From: Gammaproteobacteria bacterium
GTDB lineage: Bacteria > Pseudomonadota > Gammaproteobacteria > Pseudomonadales > Azotimanducaceae
Assembly: GCA_021773555.1 (NCBI GenBank)
Contig: JAJFKA010000113.1
Span: 1-64,000, forward strand
DNA length: 64,000 nt
Direction of reading: 5' to 3'
Of the stretch, positions 32,369-61,748 are shown one piece after another. Every line of letters starts with the position of its first letter. Positions within the stretch are counted from its first letter, which is position 1. The notes under the pieces were generated by a model, which saw nothing but the letters and a program-made list of their open reading frames with translations, ran no database searches and had not been told where the DNA came from. Made by a program: the position numbers and the translations under genes.

Positions 32369-32643
32369 GAATGGCGCTTACTTAAGCAAATTCCGTCGTT
32401 CGAGGTGCCATCTCGAAGACTTTAGCAGGAGGTGTAGTGGTTCCTTTCCGCAGTCTTCAGGTCGGGCCGCGCAGGACGGGCCGCGTTCGGATAGCGCCGA
32501 ACGCGTGAAGGAAGGGGGCCGCCATCGGACCCGCAGGGGCTTTCGACCAAGTGAGGGGAGCTCGGAGAGCCGCAAGCCGCGGAGGAAAGGAACCACTGCA
32601 CCTTCTGCGAAACAACCCGGTTCAGGTTAAGTAAGTGCCATTC
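32369..32643. mobile_element. palindromic MITE, copy A (IS4-like ends, 11-bp duplication)
   Basis: A 275-bp non-coding element between prs and the ileS promoter. Terminal inverted repeats are GAATGGCGCTTACTTAA (32369-32385) and its near-perfect inverse at 32627-32643 (one mismatch in 17). An inner pair of 25-bp inverted repeats at 32425-32449 and 32584-32608 differs at two positions. Exact 11-bp direct repeats ATCTCTGATTA flank it at 32358-32368 and 32644-32654. The ends resemble, from memory, those of the IS4 subgroup, which also makes 11-13 bp duplications. Copy B is at 61517-61748. Open frames inside are not genes. Confidence 0.88.
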
Positions 32644-32707: not shown

Positions 32708-32735
32708 TTGACATAAGGCGTGATAAGTCTATGCT
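32708..32735 (+). promoter_or_regulatory. sigma70-type promoter of the ileS leader
   Basis: A consensus -35 TTGACA (32708-32713) and a -10 TATGCT (32730-32735) with a 16-bp spacer. Predicted transcription start is near 32742, one base before the ATG of the leader peptide. It lies 54 bp downstream of the MITE target duplication, so the insertion left it intact. Confidence 0.65.
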
Positions 32736-32742
32736 TGCCCGA

Positions 32743-32808
32743 ATGAGGACTAACAAGTCAGTACAGGCAATAATTATTCGCATTATTCACTACCCGATGG
32801 TGGGTTAA
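32743..32808 (+). CDS. Ile-rich leader peptide of the ileS attenuator
   Basis: A 21-codon open frame starting ATG AGG ACT and ending TAA at 32806-32808. Residues 10-15 are IIIRII, that is five isoleucine codons (ATA ATT ATT CGC ATT ATT, 32770-32787). Its stop codon falls on the segment that can form the antiterminator stem. This is the arrangement of amino-acid-biosynthesis attenuator peptides, here before the gene for isoleucyl-tRNA synthetase. There is almost no room for a ribosome-binding site downstream of the predicted start of transcription, so the peptide may be translated from a (near-)leaderless end or from a longer transcript. Confidence 0.72.
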   Translation: MRTNKSVQAIIIRIIHYPMVG

Positions 32809-32840
32809 TGCTTGCATGACAAGATGCCAAAAACCCGCCA
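32792..32840 (+). promoter_or_regulatory. antiterminator and pause structures of the ileS attenuator
   Basis: Segment 32798-32806 (TGGTGGGTT) can pair with 32832-32840 (AACCCGCCA) over nine positions, including one G-U pair. This antiterminator uses up the left arm of the terminator. The same segment can alternatively pair upstream with ACCC at 32792-32795 as a small pause-type hairpin. A ribosome stalled on the Ile codons would leave 32798-32806 free, whereas one reaching the stop codon at 32806-32808 would cover it. Confidence 0.65.
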
Positions 32841-32859
32841 GCAAGGCGGGTTTTTTTTT
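32829..32859 (+). terminator. intrinsic terminator of the ileS attenuator
   Basis: The stem CCCGCC (32834-32839) pairs with GGCGGG (32845-32850) around the loop AGCAA, is extended by A/T pairs, and is followed by nine T residues (32851-32859). It lies 74 bp before the ileS start codon. No other gene ends here, which fits an attenuator rather than an end-of-gene terminator. Confidence 0.88.
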
Positions 32860-32933
32860 GGTGAAACTTATTAGTAACGAGCAGCTTATTAACAGGCAGT
32901 TTTTGAACTGGCAATGACATTCAGGAAGGCAAC

Positions 32934-35900
32934 GTGACCAACAGTATCGAATCCACAGATAAGGATCTGACCAGACCCGGGAGCGACAATTTTTCATTCG
33001 TGGCAGCGGAACACGAGGTCCTGGCGTTCTGGGAAACCACTGACGCATTCCAGAAGTCATTGCAGCAAACCGAAAATGCCACCCCGTATATCTTTTACGA
33101 CGGCCCGCCCTTTGCGACCGGCCTGCCACATCACGGTCATCTCGTCGGCTCCATCCTCAAAGATGCAGTGCCACGATACTTCACGATGAAGGGATTTCAT
33201 GTGCAGCGACGCTTCGGCTGGGACTGTCACGGTCTGCCCATCGAGCATGAAATCGATAAATCCCTCGGCATGTCCTCGGTAGAAGCGGTCAATAAACTCG
33301 GCATCAAAGGCTACAACGACGAGTGTCGCGGTATTGTCCAGCGTTACACATCGCAATGGCGCAAGACCATTACCCGTATTGGCCGTTGGGTGGATTTCGA
33401 TAACGACTACAAAACCATGGAACCCTGGTACATGGAATCCGTGTGGTGGGTTTTGAAGCAACTCTGGGAGAAAGATCTGATCTATCGCGGAGAGAAAGTC
33501 GTACCATTTTCCACCGCGCTGGGCACGGTATTGTCGAATTTCGAGGCAACCTCCAACTACCAGGACGTGCAGGACCCGGCAGTCACCGTGATGTTTAAAC
33601 TTGAGGACGAAGATACCTGGATCGCTGCCTGGACAACGACTCCCTGGACACTGCCTTCTAATCTTGCGCTTTGTGTTGGTGCAGACATCGAATATACGCG
33701 AGTACATGATGCGCAACTGAATCGTAACATCATCATTGCCAGTGACCGTCTTGAGGAAGTTGGCAGGTCAAAGCAACTGACAGTCCTCGAAACCTTTAAA
33801 GGAGCTGATCTGGTCGGTAAGCGCTATGAGCCACTGTTTCCTTACTTCAGTGATCTCAAAGAGCAGGGTGCGTTTAGTATTCTCGCGGATGACTACGTAT
33901 CCACCGAGAGTGGTACCGGCGTTGTCCACCAGGCACCAGCTTTTGGAGAGGACGACTACCGGGTAATGCGAAACGCCGGCATTTTTGCTTCCGTGTGTCC
34001 GGTGGATATGACTGGCAAGTTCACATCCGAGGTAACTGACTTCGATGGTATGCACGTCAAGGAGGCGGATCGGCACATCATTCGTCATCTGAAGGAAAAC
34101 GGATACCTGTACATTCAGGATGTCGTGGTGCATAGCTACCCCTTCTGTCCCCGCTCCGATACACCGATCATCTACAGGACCATCGATTCCTGGTACGTCA
34201 AAGTGGAACAGATGCGCGACGAGCTGTCGGCTGCAAACGATGAGATCAACTGGGTCCCCGCACACATCAAGTCCGGTCGGATGGGTAACTGGTTAAGTAA
34301 TGCGATTGACTGGGCAATTTCCAGAAATCGATACTGGGGAACACCGTTACCGATCTGGATCAACGACGTCACCGGCAGGCAGATCTGTATAGGCTCACGA
34401 GAAGAGCTGACAAGTTATTCCGGCGTGCGCATCGATGACCTCCACCGGGAAAATGTCGATCCCATCACCTTTGAGGTGGCCGGTGAAGCCGGCACCTACA
34501 GGCGCATTGAAGAAGTTCTCGATTGCTGGTTCGAATCCGGATCTATGCCTTATGCCCAGTTGCACTATCCGTTTGAAAACAAGGAGTTGTTCGAACAAGG
34601 ATTCCCAGCTGAGTTTATTGCCGAGGGGCTCGATCAGACCAGAGGATGGTTCTATACCCTGATCGTTCTTGGAACGGCACTATTCGGTAAAAACCCGTTC
34701 AAGAACGTCATTGTTAACGGCATCGTCATGGCAGAAGACGGCAAGAAGATGTCAAAACGACTTAAAAATTACACACCACCCGATGACCTGATGGAGCAAT
34801 ACGGGGCGGATGCATTGCGTTTATACCTGATTAACTCCGGCCTGGTACGTGCCGAAGAGCAGCGATTTTCTGACAGCGGTGTCAAGGAGATGACCCGCCG
34901 AGCCCTGTTACCCTGGCTGAACGCCTTCAAATTTATGAAAACCTATGCGGAAATCGACAGCTGGCAGCCGCTCCTGGCACCCCCGCGATCAAAGAACATT
35001 ATGGACCAGTGGATCCTGTCCCGCTTACAGACACTGAAGGCCAACATCGCCACCGAGATGGAAAACTATCGGCTGTATAACGTGGTCCCGGCATTGTTTG
35101 AGTTCATTGAGGATCTTACCAACTGGTACATTCGGCTTAACCGCGCCAGATTTTGGAATCAGGAGATGAGTCAGGACAAATCAGATGCTTACAACACCCT
35201 GTACCAGACGATTTACGAGCTGAGTCTGAGCATGGCACCCTTCGCACCTTTTCTTGCGGAGACCCTGTACCAGGAATTACGCAGTATGAATGCGGAGACG
35301 CTGCCGGAATCGGTTCATCTTTGCAGCTATCCGGTCGCCGACGAGACCAATCAGGCGCCTTTGCTGGAACGTGCAGTCACGCGCATGCAGCATATTGTTC
35401 AGCTTGGCCGGCAGAAACGAAACCAGGAGAAAGTGAAAACGAAATTCCCGGTTTCGCAACTAACAATTATCCACAAGGACCAGGAATTGCTGGACGAGAT
35501 TGCTCGTCTGGATGATTACATCAAAGCCGAATTGAACGTCAAGGTATTGTCCTATTCAACTGATGAACACAAATACATAACGCTCTACTCGAAACCGAAC
35601 TCACCTGTTCTGGGGAAAAGACTGGGCAAGCAATTCAAAGCCTTCACTGCAAAAATTCAAGCTCTGGCTGCCAGCGAAATCGATGCGTTCCAGGAATCTG
35701 GTGAAATCACCATCGACGGCGAACAATTCACGAAGGACGATCTGCTGGTATTTCGGGAAGCCCGGAGCGGCACTAACGCACTGTCCGATCGCTTCATTTC
35801 AATTGACATGGACTGTGAGCTCAACGACGACCTTCGCAGTGAGGGACTTAGCCGTGAAGTGGTCAATCGTATTCAGAAGTCAAGGCGTGAGTCAGGCCTT

Positions 35901-36089
35901 GCGGTAACCGATCGTATTCAGCTGGAGATCAATGCATCGCCATTGCTGGCAGAGGCGATCAGCAAACACAAAACGCACATCATGAACGAAACCCTGGCAC
36001 TGGCACTTGACCTTGTGAACACCGAATTGCCGCTCGAGTTTGAAGTTGATGAGCACAGCTTTTCCATGTCCCTAAAGAAAGATCTCTAA
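32934..36089 (+). CDS. ileS: isoleucyl-tRNA synthetase, IleS2-like
   Basis: A 1051-residue class Ia synthetase. The HIGH motif is HHGH (residues 66-69) and the KMSKS motif is KMSKR (605-609). The CP1 editing domain is seen around [16 protein letters not shown], and the anticodon-binding domain and a long C-terminal extension follow. Length and the segment [24 protein letters not shown] match the eukaryote-like type 2 enzymes, which are known as mupirocin-insensitive in several bacteria. The start is GTG with AGGAAGG four bases upstream. It is preceded by an Ile-codon attenuator. Confidence 0.93.
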   Translation: [1051 protein letters not shown]

Positions 36090-61516: not shown

Positions 61517-61748
61517 GAATGGCACTTACTTAAGCAAATTCCGTCGTTCGAAGTGCCATTTCGAAGACTTTAGCAGAAGGTGCAGTGGTTCCTTTCCGCA
61601 GCCTTTAGGCGAAGCGCCGAGCGCGTGGAGAAAGACCCGCAGGGGCTTTCGACCAAGTGAGGGAAGCTCGGAGAGCCGCAAGCCGCGTAGGAAAGGAACC
61701 ACTGCACCTTCTGCGAAACAACCCGGTTCAATGTTAAGTAAGCTATTC
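61517..61748. mobile_element. palindromic MITE, copy B (IS4-like ends)
   Basis: A 232-bp second copy of the element at 32369-32643. Left end GAATGGCACTTACTTAA (61517-61533) and right end (61734-61748, inverse GAATAGCTTACTTAA) are inverted repeats with a two-base deletion and a mismatch on the right. The inner 25-bp inverted repeats at 61573-61597 and 61690-61714 are perfect. Flanking direct repeats are TACTTTGAGT (61507-61516) and TACTTTGGGT (61749-61758). It lacks about 43 bp of the loop present in copy A. Confidence 0.86.

Follow-up and report, generated by a model that had tools for sequence, protein, structure and literature searches.

Organization of the ileS Upstream Region

The window analysed here, a 64,000-nucleotide stretch of a gammaproteobacterial genome, carries on its plus strand an ileS gene (32934–36089, GTG start, 1051 aa) with a Shine-Dalgarno-like AGGAAGG at 32923–32929 and the prs gene upstream in the same orientation. 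Inspection of positions 32708–32933 confirmed, with coordinates exact to the base, every element that the initial annotation had placed upstream of ileS: a promoter, a 21-codon leader with five Ile codons, a terminator 74 bp 5' of ileS, and a nine-position pairing. All of them lie on the plus strand. The promoter is of the sigma-70 type (TTGACA-16-TATGCT, 32708–32735, with TTGACA starting at 32708, a 16-nt spacer and TATGCT ending at 32735), and its position predicts a transcription start at about 32742–32743, which coincides with the leader ATG. The leader ORF MRTNKSVQAIIIRIIHYPMVG comprises 21 codons (32743–32808, ATG at 32743, TAA at 32806–32808) and includes the control codons ATA ATT ATT CGC ATT ATT, five of them for Ile, at 32770–32787; their assignment rests on the sequence and on in-frame Ile enrichment.

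Three alternative pairings were recognized in the remainder of the region. A putative 1:2 hairpin (anti-antiterminator, 32780–32811), identified by folding and by the own-versus-swapped test described below, joins 32780–32785 with 32806–32811 and 32790–32794 with 32799–32803. Segment 2, the 5' strand of the antiterminator (TGGTGGGTT, 32798–32806), overlaps the leader stop codon and forms nine pairs, including one G-U, with segment 3 (AACCCGCCA, 32832–32840), which is common to the antiterminator and the terminator according to sequence and pairing comparison. The 3:4 hairpin is an intrinsic terminator, supported by both folding and comparison, that occupies 32829–32859, its stem spanning 32829–32855 and its nine-T tract ending at 32859. 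The terminator (−16.9 kcal/mol, z −4.7) and the antiterminator (−15.7 kcal/mol, z −2.9) both fold better than expected by chance. The 1:2 stem is modest in the window (z −0.6), with a stability no greater than that of shuffled sequences. Fold energies are compatible with the proposed states, but the whole free segment nonetheless folds best as the terminator, and antitermination must therefore be kinetic. No T-box or other Rfam leader was detected in the window at gathering score.

A covariance model built from the window leader and its relatives gave one strong match in the whole 5.2-Mb window genome. We also observed a palindromic, mobile-element-like repeat with 29-nt inverted ends (about 150–206 bp) at 32415–32620 and 61563–61726; approximately 25 copies or fragments are present in the genome, one copy being located between prs and the ileS promoter.

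Conservation of the Leader among IleS2 Genes

The window ileS product exceeded the TIGR00392 cut-off (936.8 bits versus 621.4) and was 65% identical to TmlM, the ileS product of the thiomarinol plasmid pTML1; by sequence, it is an IleS2-type isoleucyl-tRNA synthetase. When the window protein was scored against MupA, the mupirocin-resistant IleRS of staphylococci, it reached 756.7 bits and did not meet the curated cut-off of 1900. Homologous leaders were found at 32 ileS loci, and the layout was present in four genomes of the window's genus. It commonly consists of a TTGACA promoter, a 15–25-codon leader usually containing 3–8 Ile codons, GGTGGGTT at the stop codon and a AACCCGCC...GGCGGGTT terminator. 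Relatives thus retained the Ile codons together with the terminator and the antiterminator complementarity, which was the alignment check proposed in the initial annotation. In one relative of the same genus (L006, reverse strand), the leader MEFRNKHVIITSDSQVVG has only two Ile codons, with antiterminator and terminator retained.

On a tree of 76 IleS2 proteins, which included relatives from named genomes, the window protein and the pTML1 ileS product, the layout was present upstream of 30 genes and absent from 46. A scan of these 46 loci for an ORF with at least three Ile codons before a comparable terminator found none. Presence of the attenuator requires 6 state changes on the tree, compared to 23.8 in shuffles, a distribution that fits, as far as such a tree can tell, one origin followed by several losses, without proving it. 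That many relatives have lost the attenuator also means that it is not essential. Some of the loci without the layout still have a TTGACA promoter at about that position, which is what decay of a leader might leave behind.

These comparisons also bear on a simpler reading of the hairpin, namely that it merely terminates transcription of prs, which does lie upstream on the same strand, and that the ORF arose by chance. A promoter and a conserved ORF intervene between prs and the hairpin, the same layout is retained at ilvA and kinase genes in other contexts (see below), and GGTGGGTT is retained although it would have no role in a plain terminator. We rejected this reading as scarcely credible, since it leaves the promoter, the ORF and the antiterminator unexplained and is contradicted by the comparison.

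Isoleucine Codons and Their Spacing

Kinship inflates counts of this kind, which we countered by thinning the leader set and by own-versus-swapped tests of pairing. In 18 leaders thinned to exclude near relatives, Ile accounted for 103 of the 364 in-frame codons (28%), compared with 12 and 6 in the other two frames and a mean of 28 (maximum 41) in nucleotide shuffles. ATT, ATC and ATA were all used, so that the amino acid is conserved rather than the letters. The position of these codons is also constrained: in most leaders the last Ile codons lie at −17 and −14 nt relative to GGTGGG, the final one beginning at −14, and the first base of the stop codon is 7 nt past the first base of GGTGGG. 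Given the textbook footprint of a ribosome, we infer from this spacing that a ribosome at the last Ile codon would leave GGTGGGTT free and that one at the stop codon would cover it.

Codon content alone is no proof of the signal, as illustrated by the Staphylococcus aureus ilv leader, which contains Ile and Leu codons and was shown to respond to Leu (PMC5794164). The leader could accordingly sense slow translation in general, or an amino acid other than Ile, and Arg and Val codons do occur in the leaders examined here. Only Ile is strongly enriched, however, the next commonest amino acid being Arg with 37 of 364 codons, and it is the last Ile codons that are held at a fixed spacing to segment 2. 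We therefore consider a signal other than Ile-tRNA quite unlikely.

The leaders are probably also leaderless in the sense of lacking an upstream ribosome-binding site. In 51 of 57 leaders, the −35 box (TTGA or a near form) begins 34–37 nt 5' of the leader start codon, a distance that would put the ATG at or next to the 5' end of the transcript; no transcript has been mapped. A Shine-Dalgarno-like tetramer was present within 20 nt in six leaders, but overlapped the promoter or the expected transcription start.

Alternative Base Pairing

The initial annotation had suggested covariation of the 2:3 and 3:4 stems as a further check, and the comparison as a whole spoke for its reading. The 3:4 terminator does covary: 99.6% of its pair cells are retained and two pairs are changed on both sides. 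The 2:3 helix, which retains 93.5% of pair cells in 25 leaders, hardly varies and shows almost no covariation; because it is nearly invariant, covariation is uninformative here. Two 2:3 variants preserve pairing, namely CCCACC in Vibrio penaeicida and GGCGGGTT in the P9 element of Pseudomonas aeruginosa.

In addition to these two stems, a covarying 1:2 stem was found in the relatives. Its outer part, examined in 18 ileS leaders, scored 288 with its own partner versus 235.9 ± 11 with swapped partners, and none of 5000 swaps reached the observed value. The outer-stem sequences are lineage-specific (TCGCAA/TTGCGA, CCAACGA/TCGTTGG, TTGCGATC/GATCGCAA and ACGCAA/TTGCGT), and the stem extends to 16 pairs in Marinomonas. 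In the same leaders, native pairing of the inner stem gave no advantage over swapped pairing (421/2000), so that the case for 1:2 pairing there rests on the outer stem. In non-ileS leaders, the inner stem stands out (0/2000) and the outer stem is weak (100/5000). Separately, in kinase leaders and in Marinomonas ileS2 (L113, L116, L140, L074 and others), the loop of the terminator together with its 3' arm (CCCAAGAGGC) is able to pair with a GCCTCTTGGG-like sequence just past the terminator, giving one more alternative hairpin ahead of the ribosome-binding site.

IleS2 as Sole and as Additional Isoleucyl-tRNA Synthetase

IleS2 genes occur in two settings. In the window genome, IleS2 is the sole protein above the TIGR00392 cut-off, another partial match being ValS as judged from its sequence, and in the uncultured relatives tested it is likewise the only IleRS over the cut-off. 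The switch would then let an essential enzyme regulate its own synthesis. Marinomonas, Vibrio penaeicida, Veronia and Natronospirillum encode, besides IleS2, another protein that has the length of IleS1. One Marinomonas genome lacks a ValS match, which does not affect the two-IleRS result. In these two-IleRS genomes, the model detected the attenuator at no gene other than the IleS2 copy, except for a kinase gene in Marinomonas piezotolerans.

TmlM expressed in Escherichia coli confers high-level thiomarinol resistance (PMC3069032). No attenuator was found upstream of TmlM or of three close relatives in other genera. Near-identical ileS2 upstream regions, all without the attenuator, were observed in Pseudoalteromonas luteoviolacea, a Vibrio, Alkalimonas and pTML1 (L062, L063, L064, L183), which, on sequence similarity, suggests that a resistance gene of the thiomarinol type was transferred recently. 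The findings on the two settings suggest, but do not show, that these accessory IleS2 proteins are an inducible defence against IleRS inhibitors.

Other Genes Preceded by the Same Leader

A covariance model derived from 25 ileS leaders was used to search 392 genomes from the order and 369 from the class, and strong matches were inspected individually. About 40 order-level matches preceded genes for a P-loop kinase (21), ilvA (8), ileS2 (6), a SnoaL-like protein (3) and a cimA-like protein (2). In the class sample, matches were limited to four further genomes, where they preceded kinase, SnoaL-like and GNAT genes. The IlvA assignment was confirmed by TIGR02079 and TIGR01124, both over cut-off; the best family of the cimA-like protein was CimA, with a score below the CimA cut-off; and the SnoaL/DUF4440 and GNAT identities were established by Pfam. 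Since a model based on ileS alone found ilvA and cimA-like genes, which encode two unrelated enzymes of isoleucine synthesis, the matches provide independent support for isoleucine as the signal.

The P-loop kinase is distantly related to PRK08118 (81 bits against a cut-off of 215), and one such gene with the same leader is located on a Vibrio pelagius plasmid. The protein is an orphan of approximately 175 aa, annotated as 'adenylate kinase' in Vibrio, whose gene has varied surroundings and whose leader often ends in RIIIIP. Kinase loci with the attenuator include L111, L113–L119, L121, L123, L125–L127, L130–L132, L134, L135 and L140, as well as L145, L146, L149, L181 and L184.

The initial annotation did not mention an Rfam entry that overlaps this family. 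Several leaders of the family, among them ileS2 leaders of Marinomonas and Vibrio penaeicida, exceed the cut-off of 43 for RF00624, 'Pseudomonas sRNA P9'; scores of 45.7 and 53.7 were reached by ileS2 leaders other than that of the window. The window leader reached 33.6 bits (E 8.7e-6 on 251 bases), below that cut-off, and its element is thus a relative of P9, not a formal member. Both share the same 1:2 hairpin and the same 3:4 terminator, and the first positions of the P9 model correspond to the Ile codons; they differ in that Rfam files P9 as an sRNA gene, with a 74-position model that lacks the leader start. P9 was reportedly named by Livny in 2006 as a predicted sRNA of P. aeruginosa. In one P. 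aeruginosa record, P9 matches with 89.8 bits from the Ile codons of a leader, MTFATLLTRRSIITAIPAMAG, onward. This leader starts ~38 nt past the first base of a TTGACA, and the match is followed by an SgcJ/SnoaL-like gene (L226, 1859–2266) that overlaps ilvA. The simplest reading of P9 from the sequence is that of an attenuated leader preceding a P. aeruginosa SnoaL-ilvA operon; a P. aeruginosa transcriptome paper contained nothing on ilvA attenuation. The SgcJ/SnoaL-like protein is a candidate accessory protein of isoleucine synthesis, and an antibiotic-resistance role that we had considered for it was dropped once the P. aeruginosa gene was seen to adjoin ilvA. At another locus (L194), the IlvA behind a P9-type leader has only 337 aa, the regulatory portion at the C terminus of the 499-aa model being absent, unlike the P. 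aeruginosa IlvA with its 515 aa. Weak RF00624 matches without a leader ORF (e.g., L208, L211 and L216) resemble plain terminators and were set aside.

The Rfam listing of the 3' part of the element as an sRNA raises the possibility that the terminated leader acts mainly in trans, as a small RNA or as a peptide, and that control of ileS is secondary. A precedent is rnTrpL/peTrpL of Sinorhizobium meliloti, which acts in trans (PMC7298713); however, that RNA in turn derives from an attenuator acting in cis. The strong matches that we inspected are followed by a gene of the same orientation and contain Ile codons, with ileS, ilvA and cimA-like genes among the targets. We regard a mainly trans-acting role as improbable and favor cis control by attenuation.

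Proposed Mechanism and Relationship to Known Systems

Taken together, the region upstream of ileS has the features of attenuation: a short leader ORF rich in cognate codons, mutually exclusive antiterminator and terminator structures sharing one segment, a 1:2 stem hiding segment 2 (clear across lineages, modest in the window), and a spacing that separates a stalled from a finishing ribosome. We conclude, with a probability of roughly 92%, that it is a ribosome-mediated transcription attenuator which senses charged tRNA-Ile and controls an ileS gene of the IleS2 type. This conclusion draws on sequence, conservation, pairing, spacing and distribution; the leaderless start, stalling and read-through are inferred, and transcript, termination and charging data are lacking. 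The initial annotation had proposed an Ile-codon transcription attenuator in front of ileS, and comparison across relatives, although not experiment, bears it out. It was incomplete in omitting the probable leaderless start, the 1:2 stem and the other target genes, besides the Rfam entry.

Transcription would begin at the leader ATG or beside it, and the 21 leader codons would be translated without an upstream ribosome-binding site. When Ile-tRNA is plentiful, the ribosome is expected to reach the stop codon and cover GGTGGGTT, allowing 3:4 to form and transcription to terminate before ileS. Under a shortage of Ile-tRNA, or with IleRS inhibited, the ribosome would instead stall at the Ile codons, covering segment 1 and freeing segment 2; 2:3 could then form, the terminator would be blocked and ileS transcribed. 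If the leader carries no ribosome, segment 2 would be hidden in the 1:2 stem, and termination would be the default.

The window leader resembles the trp, his, leu, thr and ilv attenuators and E. coli pheST, a synthetase operon under attenuation control (PMC4082710), in its cognate control codons, its 1:2/2:3/3:4 pairing and a terminator before the operon; it differs in its target, ileS, in its Ile control codons and in a leader that is probably leaderless. Transcripts that begin at or one base 5' of the leader start codon have been described for Corynebacterium glutamicum ilvL (PMC11857589) and S. meliloti trpL (PMC7298713), which share the leaderless leader peptide predicted for the window, but are actinobacterial and alphaproteobacterial, respectively, and precede other genes. 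Control of synthetase genes by the charging of their own tRNA (PMC1262725, PMC2965389) is a further likeness to Streptomyces leuS and trpS2, bacilli hisS/hisZ and the actinobacterial T-box ileS. The Streptomyces and bacilli systems use other amino acids, whereas the actinobacterial T-box, for which the window has no match, binds tRNA directly and is a different mechanism. We found no description of Ile-leader control of ileS in gammaproteobacteria in the open-access literature, subscription papers being outside the search. To our knowledge, tRNA-charging control of ileS is known only as T-boxes in Gram-positives.

A broader proposal, for which we see the evidence as evenly balanced, is that the leaderless Ile attenuator defines an uncharged-tRNA-Ile regulon across gammaproteobacteria. 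It would mediate autoregulation of IleS2 where this is the sole IleRS, and control an inducible, drug-insensitive spare beside IleS1 in Marinomonas, Vibrio penaeicida, Veronia and Natronospirillum; it would also drive ilvA, cimA and three orphan families (P-loop kinase, SnoaL-like and GNAT) that have no established connection with isoleucine or with inhibitors of IleRS.

If the attenuator is real, the ileS gene of gammaproteobacteria would gain tRNA-charging control, and the 'sRNA' P9 of Rfam would be explained as an attenuator. A tie to the supply of isoleucine-tRNA would open the function of the orphan enzymes to testing. The findings also suggest that accessory IleS2 genes may be induced by the very inhibition they could resist.
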